Positions 5,607 through 8,956 of a stretch of DNA of 14,657 nucleotides are shown here, piece after piece; position 1 is the first letter of the stretch, and every line of letters starts with the position of its first letter. The position numbers and the translations under genes are program-made. The stretch is from assembly GCA_002778715.1 (NCBI GenBank), contig PFAA01000032.1, positions 7,436-22,092 of the forward strand, written 5' to 3'. This DNA comes from Candidatus Campbellbacteria bacterium CG10_big_fil_rev_8_21_14_0_10_35_52 (GTDB taxonomy: Bacteria > Patescibacteriota > Minisyncoccia > Phycocordibacterales > UBA2163). Under the pieces are notes generated by a model. The model did no database searches, was not told the DNA's origin, and worked only from the letters and a program-made list of their open reading frames with translations.

Positions 5607-5658
5607 TCTGCCAGCGAGCAGATTGAAAAATGGTCTAAGCAAGGTTTAGGTCATAGGT

Positions 5659-5825
5659 CTACGCTCCACAAAACATCAGATATACGCAAACATTAGGTGA
5701 AATTTGACGAAGTAATTTAAAAATTTTTTCTTTTAATTCAGAATATTCTTTTTGATTTATATTTACACCAGTTGTATCAATTCCTCTACATTTTTAAAGG
5801 TACTTAGATTATTTGTTGTTTTCAT
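5659..5825 (-). pseudogene. Frameshifted remnant of a small gene
   Basis: Read on the minus strand from ATG at 5825 the frame begins MKTTNNLSTFKNVEE and stops early. Shifting frame continues as GIDTTGVNINQKEYSELKEK. A second shift at the T6 run (5725-5730) continues as FKLLRQISPNVCVYLMF and ends at TAG 5659-5661. Three coherent segments in one order suggest decay by indels. No family is recognised, and it could be chance in AT-rich DNA. Confidence 0.3.
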
Positions 5826-5864
5826 ACCCTTTGGTGTGAACTATATACTAACCCAGTGCATGAT

Positions 5865-5893
5865 TTGACATGTGGCAACATACGGCGTATTAT
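5865..5893 (+). promoter_or_regulatory. Near-consensus promoter for leaderless hicB
   Basis: A perfect -35 TTGACA (5865-5870), a 17-bp spacer and -10 TATTAT (5888-5893). Transcription should start at or within a base of 5900, exactly the hicB ATG. The upstream in-frame ATG at 5870 overlaps the -35 box and therefore cannot be used from this promoter. Confidence 0.8.
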
Positions 5894-5899
5894 CATAGT

Positions 5900-6115
5900 A
5901 TGAAAAGGAAATTTACCGCGAACTATAAAAAAACGGGGAAATGGTATTCGGCATGGGTTGAGGAAATTCCTGGCGTAAACACACAAGGAAAAACGCTAAA
6001 AGAAGCAAAAGAAAATTTAAAAGAGGCGCTTATGCTTGTGTTGGAAACAAATAAATTGCTGACTGTGCGAGAAGGTAGTAATGTCACTCGGGAGGATATG
6101 GTCATTACAATGTAA
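5900..6115 (+). CDS. hicB: HicB-family antitoxin
   Basis: A 71-residue antitoxin of the HicAB type II system that should bind and neutralise the toxin encoded next. The UPF0150/HicB-like core reads WYSAWVEEIPGVNTQGKTLKEA (15-36), followed by a helix KENLKEALMLVLETNK. It lacks an obvious C-terminal DNA-binding domain, so autoregulation, if any, may need the complex. The start at 5900 is chosen because the promoter places the mRNA 5' end there. The stop overlaps the toxin start by one base (TAATG), giving tight translational coupling. Antitoxin-first order is common outside the E. coli arrangement. Confidence 0.9.
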   Translation: MKRKFTANYKKTGKWYSAWVEEIPGVNTQGKTLKEAKENLKEALMLVLETNKLLTVREGSNVTREDMVITM

Positions 6116-6318
6116 TGAAACGAGTTGACCTCATTAGATATTTATTAAAACACGGATGTTCTCTTGTGCGTGAAGGCGCCAAGCACTCCGTGTTTTTTAA
6201 TGCTACAACTGGTCACACGTCAACTGTACCAAGACATGGTGAGATTAATTTCTTCCTTGCGAAGAAAATCTGTCGAGATTTAGGTATTGATGACATAGTA
6301 AAAAGAGGGACCGTTTAA
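6115..6318 (+). CDS. hicA: HicA-family mRNA interferase toxin
   Basis: A 67-residue double-stranded-RNA-binding-fold toxin; HicA toxins cleave mRNA and arrest translation. The catalytic His is His24 in REGAKHSVFFN, followed by the typical strand and helix TSTVPRHGEINFFLAKKICRDLGI. Length is normal and the frame intact, so this copy is probably active, unlike the second hicA near 11.5 kb. It is co-transcribed with hicB. Confidence 0.9.
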   Translation: MKRVDLIRYLLKHGCSLVREGAKHSVFFNATTGHTSTVPRHGEINFFLAKKICRDLGIDDIVKRGTV

Positions 6319-6319
6319 T

Positions 6320-6526
6320 AAATTGTGTCTGACTCTTTTCTATTTTGCGCGACCTTTGTAAGGTATTTGTAATTTGAAATCGGGTATTTCATATAGTTTT
6401 TCTCTTTAAACTCTTTAATAACCATAAATAATCAAGTAATCTGTTAGGAGATTTAAATGATAATTATTTCTTATTGTTTTTATTGTCTTTCATAGTGTTT
6501 TAACTCTACTATGCCAGACACAATTT
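6320..6526. repeat. MITE-like segment with 12-bp terminal inverted repeats
   Basis: The bases aaattgtgtctg (6320-6331) are exactly matched by the reverse complement at 6515-6526. The 183-bp interior is AT-rich with no gene. Ends containing GTGTCTG resemble inverted repeats seen around small transposable elements. No target-site duplication is obvious. It begins two bases after the hicA stop codon. Confidence 0.4.
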
Positions 6527-6808
6527 TGTGGAGGGTCTCAAAAAAGATAATTGTGAGTGACATACTTACTTATGGTATAGTAGTAATCATGTTATCAATA
6601 GGCATAGTTTGGACACAATACGACATAGTATTGCCGGAGAAAGCACAAAACTGATTCCATTTTCCTTCACGATAAAACTTCCTCCACCACGCTATGGGCG
6701 CATCATTGTGAGTCGTAATCAGCAAGGTAGGATAGTACACTCCACTCCTCCAAAATGACTCTATTTTTTGAAAACATACGGCTTTTTAGCTGGCGTGGGG
6801 CTTTTTGC

Positions 6809-6837
6809 TTTTCATAGTGGTAGACTAAAAATATAAT
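6809..6837 (+). promoter_or_regulatory. Possible promoter for the leader RNA and metallopeptidase cassette
   Basis: A perfect -10 TATAAT (6832-6837) with a weak -35 TTTTCA (6809-6814) at 17-bp spacing. Transcription would begin near 6844, giving a 5' leader of about 177 nt that includes the structured RNA before the ATG at 7021. Confidence 0.4.
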
Positions 6838-6892
6838 TAAATAAGTAGAACATCTAAACTTTTTGCTATGACAAGAGGCATGGTGAAAAAGA

Positions 6893-6990
6893 CGAGTTAA
6901 GCATAAAAAACCCATCATGGGGTCGCTTAACTCGCCATATCGGGAAACCGGTATGAGAGGCTTCGAGCCTCTACCCGTGGTGGGCTTTTT
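6893..6990 (+). ncRNA. Candidate structured leader RNA (pseudoknot or attenuator)
   Basis: Four helices can be drawn. P1: cccatcatggg (6911-6921) with cccgtggtggg (6974-6984), all 11 positions paired counting two G-U, extended by A5 (6906-6910) with T5 (6986-6990). P2: catatcgg/ccggtatg (6936-6943, 6948-6955) closed by a GAAA tetraloop. P3: agaggct/agcctct (6956-6962, 6966-6972). Stem A: cgagttaagc (6893-6902) with gcttaactcg (6925-6934), which crosses P1, so the two form a pseudoknot or exclude one another. The U-run on P1 makes it terminator-like. It matches no riboswitch class I could recall. It lies 30 bp before the cassette at 7021. Confidence 0.6.
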
Positions 6991-7020
6991 GTTTGCAGGG
7001 AGCTTATCACATAAAAAATT

Positions 7021-7575
7021 ATGGCTTTGATTACAATAGTATTGGCGGGGTATATCTTTTTAGGCTGGTCAAGTTTGGCTATTCTTGCAAGGAAAGAAGG
7101 GAAAGACGAGATGGCTCGTTATTTTAGAGGCGTAGAATTTACAGGTCTTCTTTTGGTGGCTGTTTATTTTATTGCGAAGTGGCTAGAGGTTGATTTGGAA
7201 TTGTTTTTTCTTTTTGCGGTAGGTATCGGTTCAATGGCTTACATCAGTAAACTTGGAGCTGGTTTTGAAATTTCTATAATAACCGCGACAGATGTGTTCG
7301 CACCCAAAAGATTATGGTTGTTTTTCTTTTATTCTGTAGGATACATACTTCTCTTGGGTGCTGTGGGATACCATTGGTATATCGCAGGTTTTCTGCCAAC
7401 ACTTTATTTATTTCTTTTAGGTTCTGTCGCAAGCATTATTGTTTATATTCCGCTTATAAAGATGCCGATGCTTTCAGACAAAGAAACGTTTTTTACTTCT
7501 TTTAACAAGGCACAGATTTTTATGGTTATTGCGTTTGGAAACATTTTATTACGGATATTTTTTTATGGTGTCTGA
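7021..7575 (+). CDS. Multi-pass membrane protein of unknown function
   Basis: A 184-residue protein with about five to six hydrophobic segments (roughly 3-22, 38-54, 60-75, 97-117, 121-145, 164-181). It contains no recognised enzymatic motif. Polar spots are ARKEGKDEMARYFRG (23-37), between helices one and two, and MLSDKETFFTSFNKAQ (150-165), before the last helix. A weak purine-rich site (cagggag, about 6996-7002) lies rather far from the ATG. Its 3' end overlaps the metallopeptidase gene by 11 nt, so the two are coupled and probably work together. Confidence 0.8.
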   Translation: MALITIVLAGYIFLGWSSLAILARKEGKDEMARYFRGVEFTGLLLVAVYFIAKWLEVDLELFFLFAVGIGSMAYISKLGAGFEISIITATDVFAPKRLWLFFFYSVGYILLLGAVGYHWYIAGFLPTLYLFLLGSVASIIVYIPLIKMPMLSDKETFFTSFNKAQIFMVIAFGNILLRIFFYGV

Positions 7576-8503
7576 AAATAAAAAAGAAATGTTTGTGCGG
7601 GAGGTGCAGGATTTTTTTGACCAACTCCTTGCGATGAAATCTTCGGAGAAAATGGAGCAGTATTTGGAGTTTTGCAAGAGGGTGCCGAATCACTCAACAT
7701 TTAACAGCACTCTTGTATTTATACAAAAGCCGTCTTGCTTTTATTACGCCACAAAAGCGCAATGGAAAAAGCTTTTTAACAGAGAGCTAAAGCCGTCTGC
7801 CCGACCCTTGCTGATATTGTTTCCTTTCGCTCCAGTAGAGTTCGTATATGACCTTGAAGATATTGAAGGTGAGCCATTGTCAGAAAAAGATTTAATCTAT
7901 TGGTGGGTAGAAGAAAGTGGTGGCATATCGCGAGAGAGAATAGAAAGTTTAATACGGCTTTGTGAAGAATTGGGTATAAGATTTAGCATCGCCTCTACAG
8001 ATTACCTGCGCGAGAAGGGTCATATGACATTTGGGGTTGCAAACCACAAGATGGACACTAACGAATACAGGATAAAATTACATCCGAGGTATAAAGACCC
8101 CGCATTTTTGCAGGAGGCATTCGGGGTGTTAGTTCATGAGGTGGCGCATTATTTGCTTGGGCATTGTGGCGAAATACGCAAGGCGGTACAATTTAGAAGA
8201 AAAAATGTGGAGGGGTTTGAAGATGTGTTTATTGCCAAGGACGCGCACAAAATTGACCGCTCATCCGAAGAGGTGGAGGCAGAATTGACGGCGTATCTCG
8301 TCTTTTCAAAATACGGGGTTGCTAAAAAGTCAGCACCGTATTTAGCTGGATGGATAACTAAACAAAGTGCAAAGTCGGTTCGGATAGTGGAGGTGGGTAA
8401 GGTGGTGGACAATGTCTACAAAATGGCAAACGGTGAGCGTTGGTGGATTAAGAAAGCTCGGAGAGCGCATAAAGACGCAATGGACAAGGCGATACATTTT
8501 TAA
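7565..8503 (+). CDS. ArdC-like zinc metallopeptidase
   Basis: A 312-residue predicted cytoplasmic protein. The C-terminal half has a zincin site: HEVAH at 191-195 within VLVHEVAHYLLGHCG, with a probable third ligand among the glutamates of EEVEAELTAYLVF (235-247). The N-terminal half resembles the ssDNA-binding domain of ArdC antirestriction proteins: HSTFNSTLVFIQKP (43-56), TKAQWKKLFNRELKPSARPL (63-82), then FVYDLEDIEGEPL (93-105), similar to ArdC's V.D..QTEGEPLP. This domain match is by eye. An upstream in-frame ATG at 7529 exists, but 7565 gives the usual short overlap with the preceding stop. Possible roles are antirestriction or regulated proteolysis (ImmA-like). Confidence 0.75.
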   Translation: MVSENKKEMFVREVQDFFDQLLAMKSSEKMEQYLEFCKRVPNHSTFNSTLVFIQKPSCFYYATKAQWKKLFNRELKPSARPLLILFPFAPVEFVYDLEDIEGEPLSEKDLIYWWVEESGGISRERIESLIRLCEELGIRFSIASTDYLREKGHMTFGVANHKMDTNEYRIKLHPRYKDPAFLQEAFGVLVHEVAHYLLGHCGEIRKAVQFRRKNVEGFEDVFIAKDAHKIDRSSEEVEAELTAYLVFSKYGVAKKSAPYLAGWITKQSAKSVRIVEVGKVVDNVYKMANGERWWIKKARRAHKDAMDKAIHF

Positions 8504-8505
8504 TT

Positions 8506-8907
8506 ATGAAAATAATAATTCCAGAGGAATATAGGAATAAGTTTAAGAGTGAGCGAGCTTGGGTAAAGCCGAAATCGAGACGAACACTGCTTCATCCGTT
8601 TGGTGGTGCTTATTTACCTTGTATTGTTCTAGAGTTAACATCGGTCTATGTTGCGCGTTGGAAAGGGTGTAGCTTACTTTTGATGAATAGAGATGAACGC
8701 AGACGGCTTGTGGAGGGTCTTGAGCGCGAGAGCGATGATATGCCGGAGGGTTTTACAAAGGCGGACATTAAGGCAGTGCTGATGGAAGACGGCGCAATTG
8801 AGGTGTCGGAAGCGTTCGGCAAGTGGATTGGAAAAGGAGAGCTAATTTACACGGAAGACAAAGCGGGTATCGTGGTAACAATGAGTGTCAACGAGGTCGG
8901 ACCTTGA
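8506..8907 (+). CDS. Hypothetical protein, possibly MraZ/AbrB-like
   Basis: A 133-residue soluble protein starting 2 nt after the metallopeptidase stop, so in the same operon. The order GCSLLLMNRDERRRLVEGLERE (54-75), then DGAIEVSEAFGKWIGKGELIYTEDKAGIVV (94-123), loosely recalls the two half-repeats of MraZ (CLFLYP..EW, then A.EV...G...LP..L), but key residues are not clear. It could be a DNA-binding regulator of the cassette. Codon use is visibly richer in GC than the flanking genes, suggesting transfer. Confidence 0.65.
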   Translation: MKIIIPEEYRNKFKSERAWVKPKSRRTLLHPFGGAYLPCIVLELTSVYVARWKGCSLLLMNRDERRRLVEGLERESDDMPEGFTKADIKAVLMEDGAIEVSEAFGKWIGKGELIYTEDKAGIVVTMSVNEVGP

Positions 8908-8956
8908 TATGTTTTGAGTATAGAAATTTTTTTTAAAAAATGTTAAAGTTTAACAA

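Follow-up and report, generated by a model that had tools for sequence, protein, structure and literature searches.

The Locus and Its Structured RNA

The window, i.e., the whole stretch of DNA that has been analysed here, comprises 14,657 nt of contig PFAA01000032.1 (GCA_002778715.1, positions 7,436-22,092, forward strand), and its own coordinates are used throughout. It holds a three-gene operon preceded on the same strand by a structured RNA, with the following features:

5607-8956 (no strand): stretch of 3.35 kb absent from genome G680, with HicB, HicA, LOOT and the three cargo genes
6832-6837 (+): TATAAT, candidate -10 box of a promoter of the leader's own, by consensus match only
6851-6885 (+): hairpin 1, with outer stem 6851-6854/6882-6885 and inner stem 6859-6865/6872-6878, from the RF03000 alignment and relatives
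6893-6902/6925-6934 (+): stem A, 10 bp, an exact inverted repeat and part of the LOOT model
6910-6923 (+): inner hairpin in the loop of stem A (6910-6913/6920-6923), excluding P1
6911-6921/6974-6984 (+): P1, 11 bp, crossing stem A, with two U.G pairs, absent from the Rfam model
6936-6955 (+): hairpin 3, 8 bp, with a GAAA tetraloop at 6944-6947; 99.6% of cells paired in 31 relatives
6956-6972 (+): hairpin 4, found in the window fold, the RF03000 alignment and the 31 relatives
6977-6991/6996-7010 (+): anti-P1 hairpin, the P1 3' arm and U-run paired downstream, predicted at -18.3 kcal/mol
6985-6994 (+): U-run, C UUUUU G UUU directly after P1, an intrinsic-terminator-like end
7010-7018 (+): CATAAAAAA, direct repeat of 6902-6910 shortly ahead of the ATG at 7021
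7021-7575 (+): cargo gene 1, membrane-like protein of 184 aa, no Pfam family
7568-8503 (+): cargo gene 2, zincin-like metallopeptidase (MPTase-PolyVal, E 0.02, below the cut-off)
8506-8907 (+): cargo gene 3, 133 aa, no Pfam family

An Rfam search of the region, as the initial annotation had proposed, has identified the RNA as LOOT (RF03000) at 6851-6972 (+), with 83.4 bits against a gathering threshold of 46.4 (E 7e-15) and an alignment that runs over the full length of the model (positions 1-121). The LOOT architecture of hairpin 1, an extended hairpin 2 and hairpins 3 and 4 is likewise found, and the internal loop of hairpin 1 carries the conserved, near-invariant bases CUAA and AUGG. The segment 6893-6990, for which the element had initially been annotated, corresponds to the 3' two thirds of LOOT together with an 18-nt tail beyond the Rfam model; its 5' end was thus drawn too short, as the element starts at 6851 and hairpin 1 had been left out. 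The four helices that had been described within these 98 nt, including the GNRA-capped one, are all located where they had been placed, and the segment folds at -42.6 kcal/mol, a value reached by 0 of 200 dinucleotide shuffles (z = -5.46). It had further been stated that the RNA fits no familiar riboswitch class. Indeed, LOOT alone reaches the gathering threshold in the window, and at E <=1 within 6750-7100 it is accompanied only by a sub-threshold rox2 match; the implied position outside the known families has been superseded by the LOOT assignment. A known riboswitch has been discarded as a candidate, with no Rfam riboswitch model matching.

LOOT Before and Beyond the Window

LOOT was reportedly first described by Weinberg and colleagues in 2017, and to our knowledge no function has been assigned to it. 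Rfam lists its type as Gene; sRNA. In the parts of the published work that mention it, it is given as an RNA of ~43 base pairs in six helices with 28 cross-covariations (Rivas, 2020; PMC7657543), occurs in a figure legend (Rfam 14 paper, PMC7779021), and is a table entry with two additional covarying pairs (Rfam 15 paper, PMC11701678). The six helices, as far as described there, agree with the RF03000 model counted without P1. A literature search has returned no functional study of LOOT and, for the sections of text found (including those of PMC11665869), no such leader or such elements in Patescibacteria.

Of 285 genomes sampled from the class, 74 have been found to carry LOOT, often as a single copy and with a maximum of seven per genome, as have 83 of 379 sampled from the phylum, a sample overlapping with the former. 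The window copy is the single one detected in its source genome. A long LOOT pattern searched in one genome per species (84,980 species) has yielded 72 stretches. The lineage names in their titles are presumably those of Patescibacteria groups with two exceptions, several titles reading just "bacterium"; the exceptions, one Gastranaerophilales and one Pacearchaeota record, have been taken as probable binning errors. A pattern scan that required a CCTAAAC start did not match in the window, because the LOOT there starts with CATCTAAAC instead. In viral contigs, two-anchor patterns have given 0 LOOT among 240 loci after filtering, among the matches listed, and three-anchor patterns have given 62 stretches, of which 48 were searched with the model and 9 virus records of these 48 carry LOOT.

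Two comparative sets have been used. Set 1 consists of 106 LOOT loci (window included) from the 285 class genomes, parsed into stem A, loop and tail. Set 2 derives from the 72 stretches, from which 9 with a core identical to set 1 were removed and 2 of the remaining 63 were unusable, leaving 61; as near-identical and same-genome loci were kept, it is not fully independent. The loci are mutually related, and the sole dereplicated figure is that of the P1 duplex test with 22 loci. Pair counts are based on a sequence-only, plain MAFFT alignment of 31 relatives that were hand-picked for similar loops.

P1, a Conserved Helix Outside the Rfam Model

The crossing of the 10-bp stem A by the 11-bp P1, which the initial annotation had drawn, is present in the sequence, and both helices are conserved with many compensatory changes. 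In stem A, each of the 10 pairs has changed on both sides among the 31 relatives, with 81.9% of cells paired. P1 is paired in 92.3% of cells and shows such changes in 6 of 11 pairs, and for the whole structure 0 of 500 shuffles of the alignment are as good. The annotation had made its proposal depend on covarying homologues and, in case of a known family, on the presence of stem A in it; LOOT does include stem A, and the stem covaries. Rfam places an inner hairpin in the apical part of LOOT hairpin 2, and it is there that the 5' arm of P1 is located; the 3' arm belongs to the tail, beyond the last base of the Rfam model.

In the P1 duplex test, for which 96 of the 106 loci of set 1 could be used (10 were dropped owing to the stem-A parse or a short tail), the loop of each locus pairs with its own tail at -24.2 kcal/mol on average, whereas the tails of other loci give -12.8 kcal/mol and permuted assignments average -12.9 (sd 0.43, n=96). 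The own tail ranks within the best tenth in 94/96 loci and is the single best partner in only 40/96, because P1 types are shared among loci. Dereplication to 22 loci leaves the difference intact (-23.8 vs -11.8 kcal/mol), with the own tail best in 18. P1 fails in just two loci, L043 (-12.0 kcal/mol) and L106 (-6.2 kcal/mol), the next weakest being -18.6 kcal/mol. Set 2 has given -24.2 vs -16.4 kcal/mol, with 59/61 loci at -17 or better, and P1 has been found in all nine virus-record LOOTs (two of which have a similar loop and tail), a count that leans toward P1 since one best candidate site was kept per virus record. Taken over these comparisons, P1 as a conserved part of LOOT outside the Rfam model is well supported. 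The two wobbles of P1 had been interpreted as drift under maintained pairing, which is not supported: they stay U-G in 29/31 and 28/31 close relatives and, being themselves retained, look selected as wobbles.

The U-run is nearly fixed in position, with the first TTT located 12-16 nt past the Rfam end in 91/104 loci. In the window a stable GC-rich helix is immediately followed by such a run, as in an intrinsic terminator or attenuator, and from the five U to the ATG at 7021 the distance is 30 nt, in line with the spacing to the operon that had been noted before. A promoter at a fixed distance has not been found across the loci; -10-like hexamers spread over ~35 bp upstream, with a peak at -6.

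Competing Folds

P1 has predicted competitors on both of its arms. On the 5' side, an inner hairpin of <=-1 kcal/mol is predicted in 94/96 loci (mean z -2.8), built from 44 different arm pairs, and it overlaps P1 by at least 4 nt in 92/94 of these; in the close subset its covariation is weak (1/4 pairs). The two states are nearly balanced when computed as nested folds: stem A plus inner hairpin reaches -54.1 and the P1 state -53.7, with a mean difference of -0.4 and an sd of 4.0 (n=96). The window is less balanced than the average locus, since its nested P1 state (-53.4 kcal/mol) is better than the stem-A state (-48.0 kcal/mol) by 5.4 kcal/mol. On the 3' side, the P1 arm has a better predicted partner in the downstream sequence of its own locus than in those of other loci (z -9.9, n=104; z -4.5, n=58). 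In set 1, 47/104 loci reach -12 in this anti-P1 pairing vs 23% of mismatched pairs; in set 2, strong cases (-9) are no commoner than among mismatched pairs (26/58 vs 46%), and the mean alone differs. For the P1 arm of the window, 11 of 103 downstream stretches of other loci pair better than its own. The anti-P1 hairpin there would release the P1 5' arm, and covers the GGGAG upstream of the start codon.

The nested optimum of the growing window transcript passes through these folds in turn, with the stem-A fold predicted until the tail has emerged, P1 at lengths of 144 and 148 nt, stem A again from 152 nt, and at 160 nt the tail held in the anti-P1 hairpin. The initial annotation had left open a pseudoknot or a switch, and the mutually exclusive pairings make a switch plausible. 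As expected for a riboswitch, the family holds mutually exclusive conserved folds that reach expression signals, of which the window has P1, the inner hairpin and the anti-P1 hairpin only.

The pseudoknot has to be weighed in its own right, as P1 is very stable and an A/P1 pseudoknot feasible, so that both helices could stand together with no switching. LOOT would then be a rigid leader that causes constant partial termination and a low cargo dose. The helices look sterically compatible in the window, where an 8-nt loop spans P1, a 3-nt joint follows, and a 39-nt loop accommodates two hairpins; furthermore, stem A plus P1 is favoured by 17 kcal/mol on average, in a crude sum without pseudoknot penalty, the two-state folding itself having been nested only. 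A rigid leader, however, needs no competitors, yet the inner hairpin recurs in nearly every locus with its many different arm pairs, and competitors exist also for the P1 tail and, in a subset, for stem A. We regard a rigid leader as rather unlikely. Attenuation by a leader peptide starting at the AUGG has been considered separately and rejected: frames are present in 99/106 loci, without conserved length and with a median of 14 codons vs 11 in other frames.

A Copy of Stem A at the Start Codon

The competitor of stem A has been observed as an exact word of at least 8 nt from its 5' arm that recurs within 120 nt downstream in 24/96 loci, compared to 0.8% for the arms of other loci, often with AAAA just before it. 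By the ORF calls, which are longest-frame calls with some wrongly assigned starts, 17 of the 24 copies end 0-4 nt before the start codon. Five more (L009, L042, L075, L076, L077) are followed within 0-4 nt by an unassigned ATG, and of the remaining ones that of L015 overlaps the start and that of L056 lies inside the gene. With a copy of the 5' arm before the start, the 3' arm of stem A is complementary to the start region (z -12.7, compared to z +1.6 for the 5' arm as control). A local-alignment test has given z 13.2, with three control segments near zero and 21/96 loci above the 99th percentile; in set 2 it has given z 6.3, with only 5/61 loci above that percentile. Judged by these comparisons, the start-codon copy is a minority trait, present in about a quarter of loci. 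A significant copy has not been found in the window, where only CATAAAAAA is repeated; this repeat is possibly a degenerate form of the copy in relatives, although it is not significant and ~17% of loci score as well.

These copies bear on a reading in which LOOT acts on translation, with the P1 pseudoknot keeping stem A closed (ON), the pairing of the 3' arm with the start region as the OFF state, and the U-run merely part of the P1 fold. The position of most exact copies directly before an assigned start codon would fit, as would the weak runs of many loci, such as CUUUGUGUUU. In four hand-picked loci the start-region and stem-A pairings differ by 0.3-3.4 kcal/mol, the former being better, and part of the minimum-energy fold, in L038. 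Pairing inside stem A, on the other hand, is better in the other three (L025, L063, L005), the copy is clear in only that quarter of loci and is absent from the window, and the copy is far less regular than the U-run. Translation as the main level of control appears improbable.

The same or nearly the same stem-A arms have been seen in different genomes before different cargo (L008, L042, L050; L025, L038, L063; L022, L044; L075, L077), as if the leader were passed around as a unit or the target of the arm were constant.

Cargo Genes and Mobile DNA

The gene downstream of LOOT is co-directional in 99/104 loci and on the opposite strand in 5/104, at a median of 57 nt past the model end, and in set 2 it is co-directional in 56/59, whereas the strand of the upstream gene is roughly even (49 same, 55 opposite). 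Such a constant co-directional neighbour at short distance points to a cis leader, and the structured leader ahead of a co-directional operon that had been proposed for the window is backed by these neighbours and by the LOOT match. The Rfam type suggests another reading, a stand-alone sRNA acting in trans, with P1 and the U-run as its own terminator and the cargo expressed from a separate promoter or by read-through. P1 with the U-run would indeed provide a sharp 3' end ~20 nt past the model, and the conserved CUAA/AUGG motif could bind a protein; however, a trans-acting RNA gives no reason for the close co-directional gene when the upstream strand is even, and the copies of the stem A 5' arm before the cargo start tie the RNA to the gene in a subset. 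We consider this reading very doubtful.

The genes following LOOT are diverse. For the first cargo genes (n=99), the best 25 of 46 Pfam families include N6/N4 DNA methyltransferases (5), DUF4352 (5), Shedu (2) and nuclease (2), many others occurring once each and GmrSD-like proteins also being among them; a ligand cannot be named from cargo so varied. Enrichment of defence genes in first cargo over upstream genes has not been shown, with N6/N4 methyltransferases in 5/99 downstream and 8/104 upstream genes, and the PADLOC tally (best 25 of 134 families) consists almost entirely of methyltransferase models.

A recurrent neighbour is a serine recombinase (PF07508), found divergent and within 10 kb upstream in at least 51/106 LOOT loci vs 1.3% expected by chance, a rate derived from ~164 recombinase matches in ~62 Mb of rounded genome sizes. 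In set 2, a recombinase lies near LOOT in 28/63 loci, 23 of them upstream and divergent. Forty windows of 20 kb, chosen by hand from long contigs and not at random, contain a serine recombinase in 34, a ParB-methyltransferase profile in 19 (some of these matches being cargo methyltransferases), a small terminase in 13 and a large terminase in 9. Gene order read by eye in seven of them (L417, L418, L421, L427, L428, L439, L455) is an opposite-strand recombinase, LOOT, cargo, and then an opposite-strand large terminase; the small terminase, where found, and the ParB-methyltransferase are also on the opposite strand, and other genes are interspersed in some. Of the gene names, PHROGs backs those of an integrase, a ParB-methyltransferase and two large terminases; of two small terminases it backs one, with no PHROGs match for the other (L418). 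By these neighbourhoods, LOOT as a cis leader linked to mobile DNA is well supported.

The window copy, judged by its surroundings, is not in an intact mobile element, with no integrase beside it and no recombinase/terminase set around it. The one serine recombinase of the genome lies 10 kb upstream on the same strand with chromosomal genes between, and a tie to LOOT is not claimed. In G680, of the same genus, a flavodoxin-like gene and YchF are 3 nt apart, and 3.35 kb lie between them in the window. YchF has been found in 4/6 genomes of the genus, the window's included; G681 has other genes before it, and nothing in the stretch seen there matches the LOOT operon, and the stretch of G683 ends at YchF. 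From this comparison an insertion appears likelier than a loss in G680. A HicB-HicA type toxin-antitoxin pair (5870-6318) adjoins the LOOT operon inside the stretch missing from G680. The metallopeptidase, which we take to resemble ArdC, occurs in 2/270 class genomes, its own and G120 (L487, 69% identical), where the only LOOT lies on another contig and none has been found on that of the homologue.

Proposed Mechanism

On the whole, LOOT is probably a cis-acting 5' leader and expression switch for a mobile cargo gene or operon in Patescibacteria. From the conserved competing pairings we infer that switching would proceed by termination, by hiding of the start codon, or by both. As long as the polymerase is within the leader, stem A and the inner hairpin would form. 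Once the tail emerges, P1 could capture the loop, and the P1 helix with its U-run would end transcription (OFF); if the inner-hairpin form were stabilised, or the tail taken by the downstream anti-P1 pairing, transcription would continue (ON). In about a quarter of loci a second layer may exist, in which the 3' arm of stem A would swap to the start-codon copy and hide the start from ribosomes. The most promising candidate for the binding site of a trigger is hairpin 1, in which the CUAA and AUGG bases are nearly invariant. The version in the window would operate with P1, the inner hairpin and the anti-P1 hairpin, without the start-codon copy.

A wider form of this reading, which we put forward tentatively as a possibility short of an expectation, would make LOOT the general cargo switch of serine-integrase elements in Patescibacteria. 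Hairpin 1 would be the sensor and drive a multi-way strand exchange among the P1 pseudoknot-terminator, the inner hairpin, anti-P1 and the duplicated start-codon region. Defence and surface genes that can be exchanged would thereby be gated at both the transcriptional and the translational level, and might be released on phage infection or by a host signal.

With the cis reading, a catalogued RNA becomes a testable claim, i.e., a leader of mobile cargo with a conserved, pseudoknotting and terminator-like helix outside the Rfam model. The gene regulation of Patescibacteria is little known, and for the study of phage defence and gene transfer it would be interesting if mobile elements carried an RNA switch for their exchangeable cargo. 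Unusual, too, is the copy of stem A, specific to each locus, that a subset of loci has ahead of the start codon.

Relation to Known Systems

The RNA is that of Rfam LOOT in sequence, hairpin architecture and full-length model match, but the model stops before the tail and so does not cover P1, the U-run, anti-P1 or the start-codon copy, and the sRNA of the Rfam entry here has the position of a cis leader. Transcription-attenuating pseudoknot riboswitches, e.g., preQ1, likewise have a 5' leader in which a pseudoknot occurs together with a terminator-like helix. LOOT differs from these in that it matches no Rfam riboswitch model, that its diverse cargo suggests no ligand pathway, and that its terminator-like helix has the 5' arm inside the loop of the conserved domain. 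Type III toxin-antitoxin leaders (toxI-type) consist of a pseudoknotted RNA, a terminator and then a gene, on mobile DNA, and LOOT shares pseudoknot potential, terminator-like end, next gene and mobile DNA with them; however, no tandem RNA repeats have been seen around the window LOOT (6800-7100), and the genes after LOOT belong to many unrelated families.

PICIs and other phage satellites carry an integrase, terminase genes and cargo, all of which are also found near many LOOT relatives. What differs is the large serine integrase, the ParB-methyltransferase and the LOOT leader of the elements here, which are putatively mobile. A compact set of large serine recombinase, small and large terminase, ParB-N6-methyltransferase and LOOT-led cargo recurs among L416-L455 (e.g., L417, L418, L428, L435, L455), and this recurrent Patescibacteria set may represent a phage-satellite-like family. 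By eye, no capsid genes have been noticed in the few windows read. Contig C6 of genome G238 (L416-L418) carries four LOOT copies and four serine recombinases within ~55 kb, which suggests several such elements close together in one genome.
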